Positions 20,817-35,630 of a stretch of DNA of 64,000 nucleotides are shown piece by piece; position 1 is the first letter of the stretch; every line of letters starts with the position of its first letter. The notes under the pieces were generated by a model. It was not told where the DNA came from. It was given only the letters and a program-made list of their open reading frames with translations, and ran no database searches. The translations under genes were made by a program, and so were the position numbers. Source of the stretch: Bacteroidota bacterium (GTDB lineage: Bacteria > Bacteroidota > Bacteroidia > AKYH767-A > 2013-40CM-41-45); NCBI GenBank assembly GCA_004295015.1, contig SHNE01000021.1, positions 1 to 64,000 of the forward strand, in the 5' to 3' direction.

Positions 20817-21893
20817 ATGCAGCTGTATAATAAATACGACAAAGAAACTCTACGTAGAAAGCTGATGCAGGAAAATTTCCACCGCATCACCCTGTCTTTT
20901 TACCGTTATGTAATTCTGGACAATCTTCAGGAACTAAGGGATGAAATGTATAAGGATTTATCAAATCTGTCGGTATTGGGTAGAATCTATATCGCACAAG
21001 AAGGGATAAATGCACAGATCTCTGTACCCGAACCGGAATGGGAAAAATTTATGGCTTATCTTGATTCCTCCAACTTTTTCAAAGGAGTTGATTTGAAGAT
21101 AGCCATTGAAGACGATGGAAAATCATTTTATAAACTCATCGTCAGAATAAGACACAAAATTGTTGCGGATGGATTAGATGATAAATCATTTGATGTAACA
21201 AATGTCGGCAAGCATCTTTCAGCAAAAGAGTTTAATGATGCCATGGATATGCCGGATACCGTAGTGGTAGATATGCGCAATCATTATGAAAGTGAAGTAG
21301 GGCATTTTAGAAACGCTGTTCTCCCCGATGCAGATACATTCCGTCAGGAGCTCCCTATTGTGCTGGATTATCTGAAAGATAAAAAAGAGAAGAAAATTCT
21401 GCTTTACTGTACAGGAGGAATCAGATGCGAGAAAGCCAGTGCTTTTTTCCGTCACCATGGTTTTGAAGATGTGAACCAATTAAATGGTGGCATTATTCAC
21501 TACGCCCGACAAGTAAAAGCCGAGGGTCTTGAATCAAAATTTATTGGAAAGAATTTTGTTTTTGATGACAGACTTGGCGAAAGAATCACTGATGAAATAA
21601 TTAGTGTTTGCCATCAATGCGGTGAAGCTTCCGACCGACATATTAATTGTGCTAATGATGCTTGCCACCTTCTTTTTATTCAGTGTGAATCCTGTGCAGA
21701 GAAAATGTCAGGATGTTGTACACCTGCTTGTAAAGATATCGTCTCTTTACCCATTGAAGAGCAACGGAAATACCGAAAGATTGAGAAGTCTGATCCGATA
21801 CGGAATGTTTTTAAGAGTCGTTTGCGACCAAACCTTCGCGACATCATCGCGCAGTCTCCATATATTAATCTCACTTCTAACCCGAAACCATGA
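20817..21893 (+). CDS. trhO: tRNA uridine(34) hydroxylase (TrhO/YceA rhodanese family)
   Basis: The enzyme forms 5-hydroxyuridine at tRNA wobble position 34. The product (358 residues from the ATG that gives [10 protein letters not shown], the usual family opening) has an N-terminal acylphosphatase-like domain with [16 protein letters not shown], a central rhodanese domain whose active loop is [11 protein letters not shown] (catalytic C198), and a cysteine-rich C-terminus ([32 protein letters not shown]) likely to bind zinc. ATGs at 20811 and 20817 are both possible. The stop overlaps the next ATG (21890), so the following T9SS cargo gene may be co-transcribed. Confidence 0.9.
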
Positions 21894-23482
21894 TGAAAAA
21901 ACTACTCTTCTTTGCAGCAATATTAATGTTGCTGCAAACCACTTCAAAAGCTCAGGTTTTATTTTCGGAGGATTTTGCCTCCGGTTCTCTCCCTGCAGGA
22001 TGGACGAATGACAGTCTTGGACTCCCGGCTGCCAATCTTTGGCTATTTAATAATCCTTATGCACGTACAATAACGGGTGCAGGTTTCGATAGCAATTTTG
22101 CAATTTTTGACAGTGATGAAAGTCTTGACGATGATAGTATCGTCGAATTAGCAAGCCTCACTTCACCTGTCATTGATATCTCGCTGTCTACTGCACAACT
22201 TTATCTTGAATTGGATGAGCAATTTCGATCCCTGGCTCCACCTAATGGTGAGGCCCGCAGACACATTGAATATTCTCTGGATTCAGGATTGACATGGCAG
22301 ACAATCGTTTTCGATTCTTTGGATTATGGTTATCCGACAGCAGTACATTCTTTGTATGACTTAAGTGCACTTTCAGGTATCGAGTCGGATATTGTTATCA
22401 GGTTTACCTGGACAGGAAACTACGATTGGTGGTGGGCTTTGGATAATGTTCAAGTTGTAGCATATGCATCATGTACAGCTCCGCCTGTATCGGGAACCGC
22501 AACTGCTACAGCAAGTGCAGTTTGTCCGGATGAGCTTTTCGATTTGAACCTCGTTGGAGCCGATGCCGCACCTGATATTAGCTATCAATGGCAATCTTCT
22601 CCGGATAGTCTTACCTGGACTAACATCACAGGAGCAACTTCAACCAGCTTGACGCTTACTCAGCCGACTGCAACATATTACCAGTGTATAGTCACTTGCA
22701 CCGGTGTAGATTCTGCTTCAGTTGCAGTTTATGTGAGTATGAATCCGGGAACTTCATGCTATTGCACACCTCTTGGTTATAGTTGTGCAGGCTTCACGGG
22801 AAATATCACCAATGTCAATATCACCGGAACCACTTTGAATAATACTTCCGGCTGTGATGAACTTACAGATGTTGCTTACACTTTTTGGCCTGACTTACCT
22901 TCGACATCAGCAAATTTGGTGAGAGGAAACACGTATGATTTTAATGTTACCACGGATGATGACAATATTATTTCAATCTGGATTGATTATGATCTTAATG
23001 GTGGATTTGAGCCTTCAGAATGGAAACAGGTTTGCACAACTTCGCTTGCATCTGTTGCTAATACGGCGAGTATTTTAATTCCGGTTTCTGCAACACAAGG
23101 TCCAACCAGAATGCGTGTACGGGCCAGATTGGTCGGTAATCAAAATGATTCTTCCAGTGCTTGTATTTCTTTTGGTTCCGGAGAAGCAGAAGATTATGTG
23201 ATAGGTCTTGATTTCAGCGTAGGTATAAATTCCATTCCGCTTAAAGGAAGTTCAATGTATCCTAATCCTGCTACCGGCATTGCCTATGTCTTTTTTGAGA
23301 ATACAATTGCCAATGCAAGCATTCAGGTCTTGGATCATATCGGACGACTAGTACAAAGCAAAGAGGTGACGAATGTATTCAGCACAAGTCTCGATCTGTC
23401 GACGGAATCCGACGGAATTTATTTTGTACGTATTCTGACTGAGCAGGGTGCAGTTACACACAAATTGATGATAGCCAGATAA
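21890..23482 (+). CDS. T9SS-exported protein with jellyroll-like and GEVED domains
   Basis: The 530-residue protein has a signal peptide ([18 protein letters not shown]). The mature N-terminus ([18 protein letters not shown] ... [13 protein letters not shown]) is a choice-of-anchor/MAM-like jellyroll module. A Cys-containing Ig-like segment ([13 protein letters not shown] to VAVYVSM) follows, then a GEVED domain recognisable by [25 protein letters not shown] and [12 protein letters not shown]. The C-terminus ([26 protein letters not shown]) is a T9SS type A sorting domain. It is probably a surface-attached or released adhesive/binding protein; no enzyme motif is visible. A perfect hairpin terminator follows. 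Confidence 0.8.
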
Positions 23483-23501: not shown

Positions 23502-23529
23502 AAAAAGCCTCCAAATTTGGAGGCTTTTT
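23502..23529 (+). terminator. Intrinsic terminator after the GEVED protein gene
   Basis: A 28-base perfect palindrome (AAAAAGCCTCCAAA and its complement) lies 20 bases after the stop at 23482, with T-runs on both ends. It insulates the metH riboswitch transcript that starts about 110 bases further on. Confidence 0.9.
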
Positions 23530-23607: not shown

Positions 23608-23638
23608 TTTGGATGCATTTGACTTTTTTATATCTTTG
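23608..23638 (+). promoter_or_regulatory. Promoter of the metH riboswitch transcript
   Basis: TTTG (23608-23611), a 19-base spacer and TATCTTTG (23631-23638) fit the Bacteroidota consensus TTTG-N19-TAnnTTTG exactly. Transcription should start near 23645, about 30 bases before the SAM aptamer. Confidence 0.75.
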
Positions 23639-23674
23639 CCTCAGTTCTTTCAATTGTCCGTTCTAACGGATTCG

Positions 23675-23826
23675 CTTATCCAGAAAGGTGGAGGGATTGC
23701 GCCCTGTGAAACCTTGGCAACCCTTATCCCGGGTTATTAACTGCAAGCTCAGCTTGCTGATTTATTGATCAGGATGAATATTAAAGAAGGTGCCAACTCG
23801 CTCATTCATTTCGAATGATAGATAAG
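23675..23826 (+). ncRNA. SAM-I (S-box) riboswitch aptamer upstream of metH
   Basis: The P1 helix is formed by CTTATC (23675-23680) and GATAAG (23821-23826). Between them lie the conserved S-box elements in order: CCAGAAAGGTGGAGGGA, GCCCTGTGAAACCTTGGCAACC with the kink-turn/pseudoknot region, a variable P3 arm, and AAGAAGGTGCCAAC near the SAM-binding core. Such aptamers bind S-adenosylmethionine and repress methionine genes when it is abundant. It sits in the leader of metH, whose product feeds SAM synthesis. Confidence 0.93.
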
Positions 23827-23861
23827 TCATGTGTGTTCGCCTTGTACTATAAGTATATACG

Positions 23862-23895
23862 ATCTCCCTTGACTTGTCTGGGGAGATTTTTTTTT
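23862..23895 (+). terminator. Riboswitch-controlled terminator
   Basis: The arms ATCTCCC (23862-23868) and GGGAGAT (23881-23887) are followed by a long T-run to 23895, ending 49 bases before the metH ATG. The loop (TGACTTGTC, 23870-23878) is complementary over 9 pairs (one G-U) to GATAAGTCA (23821-23829), which contains the 3' strand of aptamer helix P1. Without SAM, this alternative pairing would block terminator formation. Confidence 0.85.
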
Positions 23896-23944
23896 GGATT
23901 TGATCGAAGCCCGTGAACCCCAATTGCTAATTAAATATTAATCT

Positions 23945-26900
23945 ATGTCTACTGACACAATGAAAGCGAATCAATCTAATTCAATCCGGCAGGAGTTGGA
24001 GCAACGCATTTTAGTAATTGATGGTGCAATGGGCACCATGATTCAACGGTATCAGCTCAGCGAAGAAGATTACAGAGGAGAGAGATTCAAGGAATTTAAA
24101 CATCCATTGAAGGGCAATAATGACCTATTGACCTTAACCCGACCTGATATTATTGAGGCAATTCATTTGGAGTATTTGCAGGCTGGGGCAGATATTATTG
24201 AGACCAATACTTTTAATGCACAAAGAATTTCCTTGGCGGATTATGCTATGGAAGAGTTATCCTATGAATTAAATTATCAGTCTGCACTCATCGCAAAGAA
24301 TGCTATAAATAAATACATCAGGGAGGAACAAGCAAAGTCTGATCGGCAGGCTAACATTGTTAGATGGCTTGCCGGAGCAATCGGACCGACCAACCGAACA
24401 CTGTCGCTTTCACCTAATGTAAATGACCCGGGTTTCAGGGCCATCACTTTTGATCAGCTTGCTGAGGCTTATGCAGAACAAGTACGTGGGCTAATAGACG
24501 GAGGAGTGGATTTGCTGCTGGTAGAAACCGTATTTGATACCTTGAATGCAAAGGCAGCTTTATTTGCCATTGAAACGGTTTTGGAAGAGAGGAAATTGGA
24601 AATGCCGGTGATGATGTCAGGTACTATCACTGATGCAAGCGGAAGAACGCTTAGCGGACAAACTGTCGAAGCATTTTTAAATTCAGTTTCACATATAGAT
24701 TTGCTCAGTGTAGGGCTCAATTGTGCCTTAGGTGCAAAAGAGATGCGGCCTCATATTGAAGAGTTGAGCGAGAAGGCTCCGTTCTTCGTAAGTGCTTATC
24801 CCAATGCAGGACTCCCGAATCAGTTTGGAGAATACGATGAAAGTCCCCATGACATGGGCCACCATATCGAAGATTTTTTAAAAAGTGGTTTTCTAAATAT
24901 TGTTGGCGGTTGTTGTGGAACAACACCAGATCATATCAGGCATATTGCTGCTTTGGCAAAAAAAGTAAAACCGAGAGTTTTGCCTTTGATAGAACCATAC
25001 CTCCGAATCAGTGGCCTCGAAGCAGTGACTCTCAGACCTGATTCGAATTTTATGAATATTGGTGAAAGAACAAATGTCACTGGGTCGCGAAAGTTTCTAA
25101 GGTTGATCAAAGAGGATAAATACGAGGAAGCTTTGTCGGTTGCCCGTGATCAGGTCGATGGTGGTGCGCAGGCAATTGATGTAAACATGGATGAAGGAAT
25201 GCTTGAATCAGCATCTGCCATGACTAAATACCTTAACATGATGGCCGTGGAGCCGGATATTGCAAGGCTTCCTACCATGATTGATTCGTCAAAATTTTCT
25301 GTCATTGAAGCAGGATTGAAATGTACCCAAGGAAAATCTATTGTAAATTCAATTTCACTAAAAGAGGGAGAGGAAGAATTTATTAAGCAGGCCACCATAG
25401 TAAAAAAATATGGAGCTGCTGTGATTGTGATGGCTTTTGATGAGAAAGGCCAGGCTGACTCACTGGAGAGAAGAATAGAAATTTGTGCCCGTGCTTACAA
25501 AATATTAACGGAGCAGGTTCACTTTCCTCCTCAGGACATCATTTTTGACCCGAATATATTTCCTGTTGCTACAGGAATGGACGAACACCGTCGCAATGCG
25601 CTGGATTATTTTGAAGCAACACGTTGGATAAAAGAAAACCTTCCTTTCGCAAAAGTAAGTGGTGGTGTAAGTAATGTTTCATTTTCTTTCAGAGGAAATG
25701 ATATGGTAAGAGAGGCAATTCATTCAGCATTCCTGTATCACGGTATACGAGCCGGAATGGATATGGGAATTGTGAATCCCGGCCAGTTGCAGGTGTATGA
25801 TGAAATTGCTCCGGATTTATTGGAATTAGTTGAAGATGTTTTACTCGACAGAAAAGCGGATGCTACCGAGCGATTACTGCAGCATGCCGAGTCTCTTAAA
25901 GGCATAACACGCCTGAAAGATGAGAAGGATGCTCCTTGGAGATCTGAGTCGGTTGAAAAACGTCTCGCACATGCCTTGGTTAAAGGAATTACCGATTTCA
26001 TTGAAGTGGATCTTGAAGAAGCGCGACCAAAATTTTCCAAAACCTTGCAGCTAATCGAAGGTCCATTGATGGACGGAATGAATATTGTGGGGGATTTATT
26101 TGGTTCGGGAAAAATGTTTTTACCTCAGGTAGTAAAGAGTGCGCGTGTAATGAAAAAAGCCGTTGCATATTTGGAGCCATACCTCAATGCTGAAAAGTTA
26201 TTACTCGCTGAGAATGGGATTGCTCAACGTCGTAAAACTGCCGGTAAAGTTCTGCTTGCTACCGTAAAAGGGGATGTCCATGATATTGGTAAAAATATCG
26301 TCGGCGTTGTTCTGGCTTGTAATAATTATGAAATTGTAGACCTGGGCGTAATGGTTCCGGCAGATAAAATTTTAGCAGCTTCGAGGGAGCATGAAGTGGA
26401 TATTATTGGTGTGAGCGGATTAATCACCCCATCACTGGACGAAATGGTTCATGTTGCAAAAGAAATGCAAAGAGAAAACTTTAAAATTCCTCTTCTGATT
26501 GGTGGTGCAACTACATCCAAAGTTCATACAGCTGTTAAAATTGAACCACATTATGATCAGCCTGTAATCCATGTCAATGATGCCTCGAGGTGTGTTACTG
26601 TGGTAAGTAATTTACTTTCTGATGATTTGAGAAGTGAGGTAATAGGAAAGAATAAATCCGAGAACGAAAGAATCAGAAAGCAACACGAGAACGCCAGAGC
26701 GTCAACAAAATTTATTCCATTGGAACTTGCCCGACGTTCAAAATTTTCTCCCGATTGGACCAAGGAGTGTATGACTAAACCTAAAGTCCTTGGCAATGTT
26801 GTTTTCAATGACTTCCCTCTGGAAGAAATTGCGAACTACATCGACTGGACTCCCTTTTTTCACAGCTGGGAAATGAAAGGGTCCTACCCGAAAATTTTGA

Positions 26901-27802
26901 GTGATCCGGAGAGAGGAGTAGAAGCGACAAAGCTTTTTAAAGAGGCTCAGGAGATGTTAAAGAGAATTATTTCTGAGAAATGGTTAAAGGCAAATGCTGT
27001 AGTTGGAATATATCCTGCTCTCGCAGATGGGGATGATATCGAAGTTTATAATACGGATACAGAAGGAAAAATAGTGTGCTCTTTCCATTCCTTAAGACAA
27101 CAGACGCAAAAACCGGAAGGTGATTTCAATGTTGCTTTATCTGATTTTATTAAACCTAAATCTGCCGTGTTGGTTCACGGAACCGGCGAAGTGCACTTAG
27201 CTTCCGTTGAAGCTGCCCATGCGCCGATTGATTTGGCAGGCCCGGGTAATGAGATGAATACCTTTGAAGGAAGCAATGCCCGGACTGATACAGATTACAT
27301 TGGTGCCTTTGCACTCACCACCGGAATTGGAATTGATAAGTGGGTAGAAAAATTTGAGAAGGACCATGATGACTATTCAGCGATTTTGTTGAAGGCTTTG
27401 GCCGACAGGCTCGCAGAAGCATTTGCAGAATTACTTCATGAAAAGGTAAGAAAAGAGATTTGGGGATATGCAGGGAATGAAAATTTTAGTCCGGAAGAAT
27501 TAATTAGGGAAGAATATACCGGTATCAGACCGGCCCCCGGTTATCCTGCACAACCGGATCATACAGAAAAGAAAACAATTTGGAAATTGCTGGATGTGGA
27601 GACTAATACCGGTATTCAATTAACTGAAAGTCTGGCAATGTTCCCGACTGCTGCTGTGAGTGGACTGTATTTTTCACATCCTGAATCCCGTTATTTTGGT
27701 CTCGGGAAAATTCAGCGTGATCAGGTTACAGATTATGCAAAGCGAAAAGGAATGTCCGTGGAAGAAATTGAAAGGTGGCTGGCACCGGTACTTGCTTATT
27801 GA
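23945..27802 (+). CDS. metH: Cobalamin-dependent methionine synthase
   Basis: The enzyme moves a methyl group from methyltetrahydrofolate to homocysteine via B12, giving methionine in the cytoplasm. The 1285-residue protein has all four modules: homocysteine/zinc domain (about 15-345) with zinc ligands C260, C323 and C324 ([14 protein letters not shown]); pterin-binding domain (about 360-620) with [15 protein letters not shown]12 cap and Rossmann domain (about 660-900) with the cobalt-ligand motif [12 protein letters not shown] (H779); and the reactivation/SAM domain (about 940-1285) with [12 protein letters not shown]. It is full length. Expression is controlled by the SAM-I riboswitch and terminator directly upstream. 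Confidence 0.97.
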
Positions 27803-28328: not shown

Positions 28329-31300
28329 TTATCGAATAAGACTAACTCTACCCGTATATCTGTATTGGCGACCATCCATATCACTCGCCTGAACTATATA
28401 TACGTATACATCCATTTGGCAAGGATTATCAGAGCCCGCTCTTTTTCCATCCCAGGCTTCCTTTTCATCCGATGAATGAAAAATTTCCAATCCCCAACGA
28501 TCAAGAATAACCATATAAACATCTTTGGCACCCATGGTTAAAGGGAAGAATGTTTCGTTTATACCATCTCTGTTTGGGGTGAATGCCGATGGAATGTATA
28601 TTGCAAATTCTCCCTTAATCCTCACAGGTTTTGTAATAGTATCTGTGCATCCATGTACGTTTTCAGAAATTAATTGTACTAAAAATGTTCCGGTATCGCT
28701 GTACTGATGCTCTGGATTTGTCAAGGTTGACAGACCGGTTTCATCACCAAAATTCCAGACATATTTTATCGCATCATGACTTTCATTGCTAAATGAAATC
28801 ACCGGTGATTGTACTGTTGCAGCTTCAGGACTCGAATAAAAGTCGGCAACAGGCAGCGAGAATGCAGTTGCTGTTTGTGGAATTGTCTCTTCGGCCGAAC
28901 AGTTATATGAATTCGTTACGATATGAGTCACGGTATATATTCCCGGTTCCATATAGGTATGTTCGGGTTTAGCTTCAGTTGAATAATTGCCATCACCGAA
29001 ATTCCAATAATGGGACAACTGATTCTGATTGGCATTCTTGGAATTGAATGGAACTTTAAGGGGCACACATCCTGAAACAGGAAAGGGCAGGAATGTTGGG
29101 TCTGGATTTGAAATTGCGGTCACGCTGAATGTAGTCGAAGCAGAAGGGCTTCCGCAATTATCCTGCACCGTTACGGTGTACGTTGTTGAATTGTTTATTT
29201 GTACTGAGGTGTTCTGCTGGTTGGAACCATTTGACCAATTATATGTATAGGGACCACCGTCACCACCACTTGCATTGGCCGACAGATAGGCAACTCCTCC
29301 GACACAGACAGAATCTGTTCCGGCTGTAATAGCCAGCAGGGGAGAATGAACCCTTACTATCACCGAATCAGGATTGCTGATGCAACCTTTAGCGTCAGCT
29401 ATGTGCACTGTGTAAGTAGTACTCTGTGAAGGAATGACCTGTATAGTTTGGCCATTTACTCCATGCCCCCAAATGAAATTGTAAGGACTTGTTCCACCTA
29501 TACCTTGCACGGTGATAATTGAACTTTGTCCTATGCAAATGATTTGAGGATCTGAAAGAGACAGAGATAATGATGTAGGCTCCTTTGTAAGTACTGTTTT
29601 GTTTATGTTACATCCATTTTGATCAGTGATGCTAACAGAATGCAATCCTGCTGTTAATTGTGTTACTGATGATCCGGTTTGTCCGTCATTCCAATAATAG
29701 TGATAAGGGGAAGTGCCTCCTGTGACAGTGATTGAAGCTGAACCATCATTTCCACCGAAACAATTTACATCCGAACTTTGCAGGAAACTTTGCAATTCAT
29801 CCGGTTCATTGATTTGGACCCATTGTTGTGCCGGACATCCATGTGCATCATTAATCGTCACCAGATAATTTCCTGCGTGAAGATTAGTTTGTGAAGAACC
29901 TGATGAGCCTGATGCAGACCAATGATATGAATATGGAGAAACACCACCTGAAACATTGATTGTTGCGCTCCCATCAGAGAAATTTTTACAGCTTGCATCA
30001 TTTTTAGTAAAACTTGTTGCAAGAGGAGAAGGTTCAGAGATCAATGTCAGATTGCTTTCTGTGCAACCGTTCGCATCTGTGACAAGCACAGAATAATTTC
30101 CTGCCGGCAAACCTGTAATTGTACTATGAGTAGATCCATTTGACCAGGAGTATGAGTAGCCTGCAGTTCCACCTGAGCATTGCACAATTGCCTGACCATC
30201 CTGACCACCATAACATGTAACCGGAGTAGAAATTGAACGAAGGATGAGAGCGTTCGGTTGTTGAACAAGAATATCCGATGTGCTTATGCAACCTCTGGAG
30301 TCGGTGACGGTAGCTCTATATGTTCCACTTGGCAATTGAAATATTGTTGAATCACTTTGACCGTTTGACCAATTGTATGTATAGGGTGCAGTACCGCCAC
30401 TTACACTCACAGCAGCCTGACCGTTGCTCTTTCCGTAACAGCTTGCCGGTGTCGATGTACAATATGTACTTATGAGTGGCGGCTCGGAAATAATGAATGC
30501 CAGCGCGGTAACACAATTGTTTGAATCAGTAATTGTAACTGAATGATTCCCTGCAGACAAATTTGAAGCAGTGGCACTCCTTGAGGTGGAGGAAGACCAT
30601 TGATATATATAAGGCGCAGTTCCTGTGCTTATACTTACTGTAGCTTGTCCGTCATTTCCACCGAAACAACTCACCGGGAGAACTGTGGATAGTTGTGCAG
30701 TTGGCCCACTGGTATTGGAGATTGCAATGGATGTTGTTTTTACACAGTTTTTTGCATCAGTAATGGTTACCTGATATGATCCGGATGGAATGTTTGTAAG
30801 AGTCGATCCTGTTGCATTTCCACTATTCCATAAGTATGTTAAAGGTCTGGTCCCACCTGTAACTGAAACACTGGCAGAGCCATTCGCGAGATTACATCCT
30901 GCAGGATTTGTGCTATAGGCTATTTCCAGCGGCGGAGGTTGGCTTATACTGACATTGACAGTAGAAATACAATTATTGGCATCCTTTATTGTCACAGAAT
31001 AAATACCTGTATCCAGGTTGTTAGCTGACTCCAGATTTCCTCCATAGGGTGTCCAGGAATAAAAGTAAGGTGCTGTTCCTCCAGTTGCAACAACGCTTCC
31101 GCTTCCATCATGGCCGCCAAAACAACTTACCATCGATGTGTTTCGCACACCTGCATTAAGTGCAGTTGGGGAATTAATGGTTAATGATTGAGTGAGTACA
31201 CAGCCATTCCGATCTGTTATTGTAGCAGTATAATTTCCTGCAGCAAGCCCTGTGATGGTGCTGCTTGTGGTGTTTCCTGTTGACCAGCTGTATGCGTATG

Positions 31301-34300
31301 GTGGAGTTCCGCCGCCGGCGATAAGCGTTGCCTGCCCATCATTTGTTCCGAAACACCGCGTCAATTCTGTTGAGCTTTGAGCTCTAAGTGCCGGCGGTTC
31401 TGTGATGGTGAATGGTATAATGGAACTGCAATTGTTAGCATCAGTAATTGTTACTGTGTGATTGCCTGAACCCAGGTTCGAAATAACAGGCGCATTTACT
31501 GTTGAGCCCGACCATTGATAGCTGATTGGCATTCTTCCACCACTCACAGTCAAGCTGACGCTGGCATCACGGACTCCATTGCATGATACATGATTTAAGT
31601 TTGAAATTTGTACCTGCGGTCCGGCTAAATCAGCAAGACTGATGCTGGCCATAGTATTACAGCTATGGGCATCTGTAATTTCCACTTGAAAGGTTCCGGC
31701 CGCAACATTCGAAATTGTAGAACCCGTTTCTCCGTTTGGATTCCAAAGGTAAGTGTAAGGCTGTACCCCGCCACTTACAAAGGCAGAGGCAGTACCATTC
31801 GCCAGGCCACATGTTGTTGCTGACCCCGAAGTAGTAACTGTTAGTTGCGGAGGTTCCGATATAGTAAGATTCAATACGCTGATACAGTTGTTGGCATCCC
31901 TTATTGTCACACTATAGATACCAGCGGAAAGACCTGTAGCTGTTGCGTTTGATCCTCCATAGGGAGACCAGGAATATGAATAGGGTGATGTTCCCCCGGA
32001 AGCTGACACTGTTGCAGTTCCATCATTTCCACCATAGCAATTAACTGCTGTATTATTCGCTACAGAACCACTCAAAGGAGGAGGAGACGAAACCGTGTTT
32101 GAAACACTTGCAGTACAACCATTTTGGTCTGTAATGATAGCAGAATAACTTCCTGAACTCAAAGATGCAATTCCTGAATTTGTCGAACTTCCGCTCGACC
32201 AAGTATATGTATAAGGTGCATTTCCTCCACTTGAAGAGACCGACATCTGTCCGTCATTTCCGCCGAAGCAACTGGTGTTTGTAACTATGCTTTGCAAGGA
32301 TAATGCACTTGGTTGACTGATAGTAAAGGGAAGTGCAGTAACGCAGTTGTTCGCATCAGTAATGCTCACTGAGTATGAGCCGGCCATCAGATTTAAAATG
32401 GATGATGCGTTAATTGCGGAGCCCGACCATTGATAAGTAAATGGTGCTGTTCCACCGTTGGTTACAACTCCCGCACTCCCGTCAGATCCTCCATGGCAAT
32501 TTACATTTCTAAGGGTAGAAATTACAGATGTAGGACCACTTGTATTTGAAACCGCTATTGTTGTGCTTAGTTCACAATTGTTAGCATCTGATACCCTTAC
32601 CTGATATGAGCCGGATCGGATGTTTGATAATATAGGCGAGTTTGAGTTGACTTGTGACCATGAATAATTGTAAGGACTAGTTCCGCCACTCACATTAATG
32701 CTCGCTGAACCATTGGATAGGTTGCATCCTGCTGGTACAGTGCTGTAAGAAAGATGTAGAGGACTCGGTTCTGAAATGGTAACATTTATAGATTGAATAC
32801 AATTGTTAGCATCCCGGATTCTTACAGTATATGTTCCGGTGTCTAATCCATTGGCTGTAGCACTTGTTCCACCATAGGGCATCCATTGATATGAATATGG
32901 CGCTGTTCCTCCGGATACTGCGATCCTTGCTGAACCATCATTCCCCCCTGCACATCTGACCGGTGAATTGCTTACGGTAACAACACTTAATTGAGTAGCC
33001 GAATTAACGGAGTTTGAACAAATGCTTGTACAGCCGTAACGGTCTGTCACTCTTGCAGTATACGTTCCGCTTGAAATACTCGTCAAAGTTGCATTGGTTG
33101 AGCCACCGGGTGTCCAATTGTAACTATAAGGGGGAGAACCACCGAAAGCATTTACGGAGACCTGTCCATCGCTGCCTCCATAACAACTTACAGGGTTTGA
33201 GCTACCTGAGGATTGTAAGACCGGAGGCTGATTAATAGTAAATGCAGAAATCGAAGTGCAATTGTTTGCATCGGTAACGATTACTGAATAATTTCCTGCT
33301 GAGAGACTTGACGCAGCTGAAGTATTCGATGCACCATTCGACCACTGATAAGTGTATGGGCCGGTTCCTCCATTTACTACAACAACTGCACTACCGTCAT
33401 TGGCACCCGAACATCGTGCATGATTTAGTGAGGCTATGCTTGAGGTCGGACCGTTGATATTTGAAACAGATACCGAGGTAGTGACTGAACAATTTTGCGC
33501 ATCAGTGATTGTTGCCTGATAAGTTCCTGATAGTAGATTGCTGATAGAAGACAATGTGGAACCTGTATTCCATGTATAGTTAAATGGTGCAGTCCCACCT
33601 AAAGCTGTAATTGATGCACTTCCATTAGCGAATCCACACGTTGATGATGAGGAATTAGTTATTGAATTGAGTTGTGGTGCTTGAGAGATACTCACAGGCA
33701 AAGTATAACTGCAATTATTTCCATCAGTAATTCGAACCGAATAGTTTCCACTCGTCATTCCTGTGGCAGCAGCCATAGTACCTCCTGATGGACTCCACGA
33801 ATAAGTGTAAGGTGAAGTTCCTCCGGTTGGAATGATGCTTGCAGAACCACCATTACCTCCAAAGCATCTCACATTAGTTGTGCTGCTTATTTGTGCACTA
33901 AGTACCGGTGGAGCATATACTTCTTTGCTTGACGTGGATGTACATCCATACTGATCGGTAACCCTTACCGTGTATATCCCTGCAGCTAACCCATTAATCG
34001 TTGATGTGGATCCGGATCCCGGGCTCCATGAATATTGAAAGGGTGCTGTCCCTGTTGGAAGAACTGATGCACTTCCTGTGGCGCTTCCTGCGCAACGTGC
34101 GTCTGTTGTATTTGTAACAAGAGATAATCCCGGCACTAACACACTGTATGAATAGGCCTGAATTCCCTTGCTCGGACAATTATTGTCTTTTACTGTGATA
34201 GTGAAAGTATAAGCTTGTGATTGTGCATCGGCAAGCGTAGGTGTCCAGGTGAATGTTCCTGTTGGTCTGTTACTGCTATTTGTCGTAAATGATCCATTAG

Positions 34301-35321
34301 CAATTCCACCGTCCCAATCCATGCTTACTATTTGCCCATTGTCTAAATCATTTGAAAGAATATTGAAGCTTAATGGCTTTCCCGGACAGGCAACAATGGA
34401 ATAGCTGTTCGTTCCATTTACACCTGAGGCTGTTGGCAATCTGTTTGTACACGGCTGAGTATATACCTGCATATCTCTGATTACAGAACCTATCAGAATT
34501 CCTCCTCTGTATTCTCTTACCAGAATTGCCATGACACCAACTTCGGCGGCAGTTGGATTGAGTACGATATCTCCTGTAGATGAAAGTGATAATGGTGGTG
34601 AAGAGCTGATTGGATTTGTAGCTGAATACCCGGGGGCAAAGGTGACGTTAGTTCCTGCGGCAGATCGGGGAGGAATGAATGAGTAAACAACAGAATCACC
34701 ATTCGCATCGTAAGCGCCGTGATTGTAATGAAATGCTTGTCCGATACAAAAGAATGCAACCGGTAAATTTGAAAAGACCGGAGATGAATTATTAGGAGCA
34801 ATAAGATTATTTAATGTCGCTTCAATATATGTTGCCGGTGCTCCGGAACAATTGGGAGGACTGAATGTAAGCGTTGTGATCGCACAGTTCCGACAGCAAA
34901 TACTATATCCAAACACCCAATCGGAACACCGGGCAGGGAGAGTTACCAGTCCGATGTATTCGTACTTCTGAATTCCGGGACTAATCCCGCCACCACAAGT
35001 TGTCGGTGATGAACTACAGGGTTGTGTGATTTCTTGTCCTGTGCCGGGTTTTTTATTGAGAACAACACTCAAATTATATCCGCACGTTGCTGATCTATAA
35101 TTTATTGAGACTGCGTTTGGGGCAGTAATTCCTGAACAATCTCGGTAAAGGGTGAGTTCCAGTTCAAAGGTATTTCCGCTAATCCAGGTATACGTCAAGT
35201 CAGCTCCGCTGATATGTGTTGCATTTGTTCTTGATGTAGCACATAACATAAGTGCCGTAAGCGTAAAATACGCAACGCGCCTCAGGATTGTAGCACTCCA
35301 CTTCAATAAAAAGAAATTCAT
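28329..35321 (-). CDS. Giant SprB-repeat cell-surface protein, T9SS type B C-terminus
   Basis: This 2330-residue exported adhesin-like protein is read from the ATG at 35321; an upstream TTG at 35345 would add eight residues before the signal peptide (VAYFTLTALMLCATSRTNA). Order of parts: an N-terminal cysteine-containing region (THISGADLTYTW to about residue 390) with a tandem-beta module; 20 SprB repeats of about 76 residues (C-x-G-x2-DG-x-A, GGTAPYxYxWS, TDxNxC); two Ig-like repeats; two PKD domains (YWNFGDGNYST, YVWNFGDETGL); and the gliding-motility-type C-terminal domain (YIPSAFTPNRDGINE, ILDRWGLEIF) that directs T9SS export and surface attachment. SprB itself is the mobile adhesin of gliding Flavobacterium. 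Gliding is possible here but not shown. Tandem structure makes assembly errors possible. Confidence 0.93.
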   Translation of the reverse strand: MNFFLLKWSATILRRVAYFTLTALMLCATSRTNATHISGADLTYTWISGNTFELELTLYRDCSGITAPNAVSINYRSATCGYNLSVVLNKKPGTGQEITQPCSSSPTTCGGGISPGIQKYEYIGLVTLPARCSDWVFGYSICCRNCAITTLTFSPPNCSGAPATYIEATLNNLIAPNNSSPVFSNLPVAFFCIGQAFHYNHGAYDANGDSVVYSFIPPRSAAGTNVTFAPGYSATNPISSSPPLSLSSTGDIVLNPTAAEVGVMAILVREYRGGILIGSVIRDMQVYTQPCTNRLPTASGVNGTNSYSIVACPGKPLSFNILSNDLDNGQIVSMDWDGGIANGSFTTNSSNRPTGTFTWTPTLADAQSQAYTFTITVKDNNCPSKGIQAYSYSVLVPGLSLVTNTTDARCAGSATGSASVLPTGTAPFQYSWSPGSGSTSTINGLAAGIYTVRVTDQYGCTSTSSKEVYAPPVLSAQISSTTNVRCFGGNGGSASIIPTGGTSPYTYSWSPSGGTMAAATGMTSGNYSVRITDGNNCSYTLPVSISQAPQLNSITNSSSSTCGFANGSASITALGGTAPFNYTWNTGSTLSSISNLLSGTYQATITDAQNCSVTTSVSVSNINGPTSSIASLNHARCSGANDGSAVVVVNGGTGPYTYQWSNGASNTSAASSLSAGNYSVIVTDANNCTSISAFTINQPPVLQSSGSSNPVSCYGGSDGQVSVNAFGGSPPYSYNWTPGGSTNATLTSISSGTYTARVTDRYGCTSICSNSVNSATQLSVVTVSNSPVRCAGGNDGSARIAVSGGTAPYSYQWMPYGGTSATANGLDTGTYTVRIRDANNCIQSINVTISEPSPLHLSYSTVPAGCNLSNGSASINVSGGTSPYNYSWSQVNSNSPILSNIRSGSYQVRVSDANNCELSTTIAVSNTSGPTSVISTLRNVNCHGGSDGSAGVVTNGGTAPFTYQWSGSAINASSILNLMAGSYSVSITDANNCVTALPFTISQPSALSLQSIVTNTSCFGGNDGQMSVSSSGGNAPYTYTWSSGSSTNSGIASLSSGSYSAIITDQNGCTASVSNTVSSPPPLSGSVANNTAVNCYGGNDGTATVSASGGTSPYSYSWSPYGGSNATATGLSAGIYSVTIRDANNCISVLNLTISEPPQLTVTTSGSATTCGLANGTASAFVSGGVQPYTYLWNPNGETGSTISNVAAGTFQVEITDAHSCNTMASISLADLAGPQVQISNLNHVSCNGVRDASVSLTVSGGRMPISYQWSGSTVNAPVISNLGSGNHTVTITDANNCSSIIPFTITEPPALRAQSSTELTRCFGTNDGQATLIAGGGTPPYAYSWSTGNTTSSTITGLAAGNYTATITDRNGCVLTQSLTINSPTALNAGVRNTSMVSCFGGHDGSGSVVATGGTAPYFYSWTPYGGNLESANNLDTGIYSVTIKDANNCISTVNVSISQPPPLEIAYSTNPAGCNLANGSASVSVTGGTRPLTYLWNSGNATGSTLTNIPSGSYQVTITDAKNCVKTTSIAISNTSGPTAQLSTVLPVSCFGGNDGQATVSISTGTAPYIYQWSSSTSRSATASNLSAGNHSVTITDSNNCVTALAFIISEPPLISTYCTSTPASCYGKSNGQAAVSVSGGTAPYTYNWSNGQSDSTIFQLPSGTYRATVTDSRGCISTSDILVQQPNALILRSISTPVTCYGGQDGQAIVQCSGGTAGYSYSWSNGSTHSTITGLPAGNYSVLVTDANGCTESNLTLISEPSPLATSFTKNDASCKNFSDGSATINVSGGVSPYSYHWSASGSSGSSQTNLHAGNYLVTINDAHGCPAQQWVQINEPDELQSFLQSSDVNCFGGNDGSASITVTGGTSPYHYYWNDGQTGSSVTQLTAGLHSVSITDQNGCNINKTVLTKEPTSLSLSLSDPQIICIGQSSIITVQGIGGTSPYNFIWGHGVNGQTIQVIPSQSTTYTVHIADAKGCISNPDSVIVRVHSPLLAITAGTDSVCVGGVAYLSANASGGDGGPYTYNWSNGSNQQNTSVQINNSTTYTVTVQDNCGSPSASTTFSVTAISNPDPTFLPFPVSGCVPLKVPFNSKNANQNQLSHYWNFGDGNYSTEAKPEHTYMEPGIYTVTHIVTNSYNCSAEETIPQTATAFSLPVADFYSSPEAATVQSPVISFSNESHDAIKYVWNFGDETGLSTLTNPEHQYSDTGTFLVQLISENVHGCTDTITKPVRIKGEFAIYIPSAFTPNRDGINETFFPLTMGAKDVYMVILDRWGLEIFHSSDEKEAWDGKRAGSDNPCQMDVYVYIVQASDMDGRQYRYTGRVSLIR
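29550..34130 (-). repeat. Array of 20 SprB repeats
   Basis: Twenty successive units of 73-78 codons each carry the same skeleton: cysteine, G-x-N/S-DG, a GGTxPYxYxW core, a GxYxVxITDxNxC turn and a closing P-x-L. Sequence divergence between neighbours is high, while units four apart are much more alike. The last three (18-20) depart from the alternating order of the first seventeen. Confidence 0.9.
30470..34130 (-). repeat. Higher-order tandem: four copies of a four-repeat block, 915-bp period
   Basis: SprB repeats 1-16 follow the order D-A-B-C four times, where A has a PYGG-type core and ends ISEPPxL, B begins CxLxNGSAS and ends SNxxGPT, C has YQWSxS and ALPFTISxP, and D ends in DxxGC. Landmarks confirm the period at the DNA level: the PYGG-codon element lies at 31039, 31954, 32869 and 33781, and the B-type CCATT element at 30880, 31795, 32710 and 33622, which gives spacings of 915, 915 and 912 for both. 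Confidence 0.88.
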
Positions 35322-35630
35322 ATTCAAAACTGCCCTTAGAATCAAACTTTGTCATTTTTGACAAGCATGATTTAATAGCTACCCTTGAGACGAAAGAAAT
35401 TCTTTGGAGTTGAATGATTTTCAATGCTTTTCTTACATGAAGAATCACTGTGCTTATTGGTGGAAATGCTAAATTCAGGTGGTTTCCATCCATCGATTGT
35501 TCAGTAAAAGTCAAAAATTCTCATTCTGCAAAGCCATATTCCGCTAAATTGGCAGGGTAAATAACAATTGGCCTGGTCAGAAGAATGCTTTATGCCGGTC
35601 AGATTATGAGATTTTATTCTTCAGAAAAAC

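Follow-up and report, generated by a model that had tools for sequence, protein, structure and literature searches.

A predicted SAM-I riboswitch and a boxA-like motif in the metH leader of a Bacteroidota bacterium

The metH leader and its surroundings

The stretch of DNA analyzed here, referred to as the window, comprises 64,000 nt from a member of the Bacteroidota (positions 1 to 64,000 of the forward strand of contig SHNE01000021.1, assembly GCA_004295015.1). It encodes a full-length MetH, with Pfam matches to S-methyl_trans, Pterin_bind, B12-binding_2, B12-binding, and Met_synt_B12, and the leader preceding metH carries, in order, a promoter, a boxA-like motif, a small hairpin, a SAM-I aptamer, and an intrinsic terminator. 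The features are as follows.

23502..23529, no strand assigned: palindrome AAAAAGCCTCCAAATTTGGAGGCTTTTT, read from the sequence, with a putative function as a terminator
23608..23638, plus strand: Bacteroidota-type promoter, with TTTG at 23608-23611, 19 nt, and then TATCTTTG at 23631-23638
23644..23654, plus strand: boxA-like motif GTTCTTTCAAT, close to where the transcript is expected to begin
23656..23671, plus strand: small hairpin GUCCGU/ACGGAU between the boxA-like motif and P1, present in all three predicted structures compared
23673..23828, plus strand: SAM-I (S-box) aptamer, RF00162, 70.6 bits, model positions 1-108 of 108
23675..23680, plus strand: P1 5' strand CTTATC, from the RF00162 match and folding
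23819..23829, plus strand: P1 3' strand and flank TAGATAAGTCA, which form the antiterminator 5' strand and pair with 23870-23880
23861..23895, plus strand: intrinsic terminator, with stem 23861-23869/23880-23888, inner GA/UC pairs 23871-23872/23877-23878, and T-run 23887-23895
23870..23880, plus strand: antiterminator 3' strand, mostly in the terminator loop, from pairing, folding, and covariation
23945..27802, plus strand: metH, cobalamin-dependent methionine synthase, 1,285 aa, five Pfam matches

The promoter, the aptamer, and the terminator with its T-run 49 nt before the ATG all lie where the original prediction had put them. Bacteroidota promoters follow the consensus TTTG/TAnnTTTG, and on this basis we take TTTG at 23608-23611 together with TATCTTTG at 23631-23638 to be a promoter of the Bacteroidota type; a sigma-70 scan, which does not cover this promoter type, listed no site at 23608-23638. 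The palindrome at 23502-23529 is probably the terminator of the upstream gene (21890-23482), and the metH leader would therefore be a transcription unit of its own. Hairpins like the one at 23656-23671 were seen by eye in several leaders of the same family. Farther downstream, at 28329-35345, the minus strand contains an open reading frame of 2,338 aa whose translation has many similar GGTxPYxYxW-like repeats and which looks like a large surface protein.

Aptamer, terminator, and antiterminator

The complete S-box aptamer of the original prediction was recovered by covariance search, and the score of the RF00162 match lies above the curated cutoff (gathering score, 44.4; E value, 1.7e-14); 116 nt separate the aptamer from the ATG of metH, so that the element stands in the leader of a methionine gene. 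This was the only RF00162 match found across the genome. Searches of 42 genomes of the order and 396 of the class found RF00162 in 33 and 298, respectively. The P3 insert (23728-23782) has 55 bases where the model has 6; in one relative (L035), the aptamer match spans 265 bases in all. The terminator consists of a 9-pair outer stem and nine T, and the region from 23860 to 23896 folds at -13.9 kcal/mol. A simple terminator scan, with a loop limit of 8, did not list the terminator at 23861-23888. In the order's alignment, 96.2% of the terminator cells were paired and 7 of 10 pairs had changed on both sides.

According to the original prediction, nine bases that include the P1 3' strand (23821-23829) could pair with 23870-23878 in the terminator. 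The pairing holds and can be lengthened to 11 contiguous pairs (23819-23829/23870-23880, G-U pairs allowed), a length reached by 0.3% of 3,000 dinucleotide shuffles of the loop and by 0.37% of shuffles of 23840-23888. It also covaries in the order (36 leaders, 34 distinct rows): 93.6% of cells were paired, 4 of 6 pairs had changed on both sides (14 of 500 shuffles reached 4), and the covariation score was 0.462, compared to 0.291 ± 0.027 in shuffles (0 of 500 reached it), dropping to 0.02 to 0.22 when the helix was slid by 1 to 3 columns. Among 66 leaders of the class (those with the strict boxA-like motif and a terminator energy of -9 or lower; L007 was excluded), the P1 flank paired with its own terminator half at -10.3 kcal/mol, compared to -7.4 ± 0.34 kcal/mol with permuted halves (0 of 5,000 permutations), and 22 family representatives gave -9.5 versus -6.9 ± 0.43 kcal/mol (again 0 of 5,000). 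The antiterminator uses columns 77 to 82 of the order's alignment and the terminator stem uses columns 71 to 80; since the two helices share columns 77 to 80, they are mutually exclusive.

The claim that the antiterminator uses the loop of the terminator, and not its 5' arm, held only in part. The register in the window extends toward P1, and therefore mostly the loop is used; the helix of the relatives takes the top four columns of the terminator 5' side in addition to the loop. The supposedly compact design is, as judged from the aligned sequences, a small variant of this one conserved helix and not a separate design.

Folding of 23642-23896 gave the antiterminator as the free minimum at -73.0 kcal/mol (ensemble, -77.1), compared to -67.8 (ensemble, -72.4) for P1 plus terminator and -69.1 (ensemble, -73.7) for the terminator without P1, in agreement with the predicted competition of the antiterminator with P1 and the terminator. 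Covariation and folding both indicate that the P1 3' strand is shared with the antiterminator in the expression platform. When the chain was grown to 23880, the ensemble energies were -61.5 for P1 and -71.4 for the antiterminator; at 23890, they were -72.5 and -77.1. At 23880, before the terminator 3' arm has emerged, the antiterminator is thus favored over P1 by some 10 kcal/mol, and without SAM the RNA would therefore switch before the terminator could form; SAM would have to hold P1 through that interval. On the basis of established SAM-I biology, bound SAM would stabilize P1 and free the terminator, and transcription would stop before metH; at low SAM levels, the loop strand would capture the P1 3' strand on leaving the polymerase and metH would be read. 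This switch, in which SAM locks P1 against the antiterminator, had been proposed in the original prediction and is supported by folding and by the covariation seen in both the order and the class. SAM-dependent control by early termination is what these sequence tests predict.

The riboswitch itself is ordinary and follows textbook S-box logic. As in other transcription-attenuation SAM-I riboswitches (RF00162), a full-model aptamer precedes a methionine gene, P1 and the antiterminator share the P1 3' strand, and the off state is an intrinsic terminator. The S-box genes of Bacillus are of the transcription-attenuation type. The leader described here differs from the Bacillus type in having a Bacteroidota promoter, an antiterminator that reaches the apical side of the terminator, and a boxA-like motif before the aptamer.

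S-boxes are already known in Bacteroidetes/Chlorobi, according to the accessible parts of PMC2211319 and PMC2258182; the latter, an early survey, predicts in its accessible part that translational control is the commonest riboswitch mode outside the Firmicutes. That prediction would favor control of metH at translation initiation, with the terminator irrelevant, as would the 69 of 146 S-box leaders in the class in which no intrinsic terminator was called. However, at least 5 of those 69 have a terminator by eye or by the first of the two calling rules given below, and the metH terminator combines a 9-pair stem and nine T with compensatory changes in the order. With 49 nt between them, the terminator cannot itself cover the ATG. 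We regard control at translation initiation as highly improbable for this leader.

A boxA-like motif in S-box and rRNA leaders

When the leaders were aligned, GTTCTT emerged between the promoter and P1. In the window it occupies 23644-23649, 5 nt behind the promoter element, and matches the boxA core GYTCTT. The motif as a whole (23644-23654) is missing from the original prediction and is, in our judgment, a more interesting feature than the switch. The gamma-proteobacterial boxA consensus GYTCTTTAANA, derived from Escherichia coli rRNA and suhB (PMC5725501, accessible part), differs from GTTCTTTCAAT at 2 of 11 positions, and we therefore call the motif boxA-like rather than boxA; full matches to the consensus occur in some relatives (e.g., L002 and L009). 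Counts were made with the literature core GYTCTT. A score matrix trained on rrn sites was set aside because several S-box GTTCTTA and GTTCTTT forms score low with it.

In the 110 nt preceding the aptamer, GYTCTT was present in 35 of the order's 36 leaders and in 72 of the 106 that made up a first class set, compared to 15 of 314 background windows further upstream; an enlarged class set had it in 88 of 146 leaders. The core is conserved in nearly all of the order S-box leaders examined and in over half of the class leaders examined. The order set consisted of all 36 RF00162 places listed, and the class set drew on 30 loci, 40 covering families, and 40 from mixed or under-sampled families, taken from the higher-scoring places listed. 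Between the motif and the aptamer lie anywhere from 2 to more than 40 nt. When public genome contigs were scanned with a pattern, at least 118 stretches combined the motif with an S-box, and the matches listed include Chitinophaga strains and Balneolaceae metagenome genomes; the scan required the motif and is therefore uninformative as to its frequency. Chitinophaga filiformis DSM 527 and C. arvensicola DSM 3695 show motif, S-box, and terminator together.

Leaders of 16S rRNA (28 in all) were compared next to these; from a set of 30 16S loci, the fragments L225 and L226 and the second copy L227 were excluded. The 16S leader of this genome contains the boxA core twice, as GTTCTTTAAATAA and GTTCTTTGAAGAA, and the window motif shares GTTCTTT with both sites. 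The pattern G[TA]TC[TA]T[TA][GA]A, chosen by looking and without a chance control, occurs in 26 of the 28 leaders; the site reads GTTCTT in 20 of them, GTTCAT in 5, and GATCAT in 1. The two leaders without a site are less than 30 nt long. Several 16S leaders (L067, L200, L211, and L216) have two boxA-like sites, about 290 to 340 and about 90 to 110 nt before 16S; those of L067 are at 1177 and 1403 (16S at 1501), with a TAnnTTTG promoter ahead of the first. The 16S boxA of family f56 begins GTTCAT, and 4 of 9 S-box leaders of this family keep GTTCA and ATTGA at the rRNA spacing; in f25, both S-box leaders (2 of 2) have GTTC..ATTGA, which is absent from their one usable 16S leader. This pattern, chosen after the data had been seen, was found in none of the other families and in 18 of 868 background sequences. 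Two families disagree with their own rRNA form, namely f43 (GTTCATTGACA in the 16S leader and GTTCTTAATAA in the S-box leader) and f62 (GTTCTTTGAGG and GCTCATTTACAT, respectively). What is new, as read from these sequences, is that the S-box RNA starts with a motif that is common to the rRNA leaders of these bacteria and that resembles boxA.

The proximity of the motif to the promoter raises a different explanation. TAnnTTTG stands 5 to 7 nt upstream of GYTCTT in 53 of the 62 leaders that have both, which places the motif near the expected transcription start and makes a start-site role the main rival: the leader would be an ordinary SAM-I attenuator only, in which GTTCTT serves as a start-site or initially transcribed sequence for promoter escape or expression, with no part for Nus factors. 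The spacing is 8 to 12 nt in 4 of the 62 leaders; in 5 others it is 25 or 42 nt, which speaks against such a role. Likewise, 24 of the 80 boxA-S-box stretches read from the contig scan have no TAnnTTTG within 60 nt upstream, although some of these may have variant promoters or lie near contig ends, and 24 of the 26 site-bearing 16S leaders have a site 78 to 170 nt before 16S. Other riboswitch leaders argue in the same direction. GYTCTT occurred anywhere from -110 to +24 in 1 of 30 TPP leaders and in 5 of 30 cobalamin leaders, 3 of which had it just behind the promoter, so that no such motif follows the promoter in the TPP leaders or in 27 of the 30 cobalamin leaders; these controls are weaker because most of the aptamers, as viewed in 24 TPP and 30 cobalamin leaders, start at the promoter or a few nucleotides from it and leave little room. 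Finally, promoter plus motif was not enriched in this genome (36 matches versus 29 in a backward control). We consider a start-site role unlikely, though it is the alternative to be taken most seriously.

The idea of boxA as a general promoter companion was rejected, given the lack of enrichment in the genome and the absence of the motif just behind TPP promoters. Three of 30 cobalamin riboswitches in the order (L152, L154, and L157) have a promoter and GTTCTTT before the aptamer and no called terminator. In this genome, a promoter-like TATATTTG and then GTTCTTAAAAGAG precede the rho gene (L234), the latter 215 nt from its start codon. A conserved boxA before rho was also rejected: GYTCTT occurred within 450 nt, at scattered positions, in 8 of 23 rho loci (those of 30 with the start located).

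We also asked how the motif is distributed relative to terminators, which were called by two rules. The first missed L007 and L019, both of which have terminators by eye; with its distance limit relaxed somewhat, it called a terminator in 9 of 60 control leaders (TPP and cobalamin) and is therefore lenient. The second rule, with a false-positive rate of 1.2% on shuffles, misses L019, L071, L074, L087, and L171, in each of which a terminator is recognized either by the first rule or by eye. Among the 146 leaders, 70 had both motif and terminator, 7 had a terminator only, 18 had the motif only (4 of them, L019, L071, L074, and L171, being among the leaders whose terminators the second rule misses), and 51 had neither. 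The motif is present in 70 of 77 terminator-type S-boxes versus 18 of 69 S-boxes without a called terminator, in leaders that were not randomly drawn, and the raw association, uncorrected for kinship, has an odds ratio of 28 (P = 2.4e-16). Scored by the majority state of 38 families, 19 had both, 2 had a terminator only, 3 had the motif only, and 14 had neither (P = 7e-6).

Individual families varied. In f9 the motif and the terminator go together (2 leaders with both and 7 with neither), and in f36 three terminator leaders are without the strict core. Family f42 is a clear exception, with 10 leaders having the motif without a called terminator, 2 having a terminator without the motif, and 9 having neither; its motif-only leaders are possibly subject to Rho-dependent or translational control. 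On a MetH tree of 84 of the 146 leaders (those with a recognizable MetH start), the two traits change 9 and 10 times. Independent pairs on this tree, a test of low power here, provided 2 supported terminator contrasts (9 on all branches), with the motif concordant in 1.4 of 2 on average, which is not significant. Because the leaders were not randomly drawn, because f42 is an exception, and because only 2 contrasts are supported, we claim no significance after correction for relatedness and rejected the idea that boxA is strictly tied to terminators. Leaders L258, L260 to L264, L266, and L267 of f42 have GTTCTTTAAA-type motifs that resemble the 16S sites of the family and no called intrinsic terminator. 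One genome (G295) has two S-boxes, L297 with a terminator and GTTCTTTTCC and L296 with no called terminator and GTTCATTTCC.

Possible functions of the motif

In rRNA leaders, boxA is bound by NusB-S10 (PMC10931766, accessible part), and a NusB match is present in this genome. As in rRNA operons, the boxA-like element would load NusB-S10 and other Nus factors onto RNA polymerase. Nus loading would protect the untranslated leader of about 300 nt from Rho, or would set elongation and folding, and elongation modified in this way would leave the decision to the SAM-controlled intrinsic terminator. Taken as a whole, the metH leader is probably a SAM-I riboswitch that shuts metH off through transcription attenuation and that carries, in addition, a boxA-like Nus-loading element. 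A stronger version, in which an rRNA-type, Nus-modified polymerase transcribes the Bacteroidota SAM riboswitch, with boxA at the very beginning of the RNA loading NusB-S10 and suppressing Rho and pausing so that the SAM-controlled terminator is the sole exit, is put forward tentatively, as possible but short of probable.

The pyrimidines of the motif might instead tie up the purine-rich terminator 3' arm when SAM is absent and so act as a second long-range antiterminator. In the window, the free minimum indeed pairs 23646-23651 with 23881-23886, and the antiterminator state loses about 4 kcal/mol in ensemble energy when the motif is forced to stay unpaired. Across species, however, the motif paired with its own arm at -4.32 kcal/mol and with the arms of others at -4.36 kcal/mol (P = 0.62, 66 leaders; P = 0.67 for 22 representatives), and by this own-versus-permuted test a general role as a pairing partner of the terminator was rejected. 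Moreover, the arms vary but the core does not, and this core is also found in 16S leaders and in S-box leaders for which no terminator was called. We think such a pairing role quite improbable. With the motif held single-stranded, as it would be when bound by Nus factors, the ensemble energies of the antiterminator (-73.1) and of the terminator without P1 (-73.4) are nearly equal, so that Nus binding alone would not favor read-through at equilibrium; with no gain in folding, the benefit of Nus loading would come from Rho resistance, speed, or folding order.

The window motif has in common with the boxA of rRNA operons the core GYTCTT and a position in an untranslated leader, but it differs in belonging to an mRNA leader, where a riboswitch and an intrinsic terminator follow it. 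The boxA sites of the suhB 5' untranslated region and of other gamma-proteobacterial mRNA leaders are likewise outside rRNA operons and upstream of a gene; those sites were sought within 50 bp of the start codon, and the one at suhB represses (PMC5725501, accessible part). The word riboswitch does not occur in the text of PMC5725501. Riboswitches that control Rho-dependent termination have been described (Hollands 2012, as cited in the accessible part of PMC12121620), and these share with the metH leader the principle of metabolite-controlled termination in a leader. There, as the citing text presents them, the Rho-binding sites constitute the switch, whereas here the switch is an intrinsic terminator and the boxA-like motif would counter Rho. 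We found no description of a boxA before a riboswitch in the literature searched, mostly papers available without subscription, and none in the accessible parts of PMC5725501, PMC10931766, PMC1262725, PMC2965389, PMC10250234, PMC12121620, PMC2211319, and PMC2258182.

For the class, the covarying antiterminator supports attenuation at an intrinsic terminator as a common S-box mode, in contrast with the prediction in the accessible part of PMC2258182. If the strong Nus reading were true, riboswitch attenuation and rRNA antitermination would be joined in a single device in much of the class. If the motif is a working boxA, six bases would offer a handle at the bench on the effects of elongation factors in co-transcriptional RNA switching, and the Nus complex would have a conserved job in Bacteroidota outside rRNA synthesis, that of shaping a riboswitch decision.
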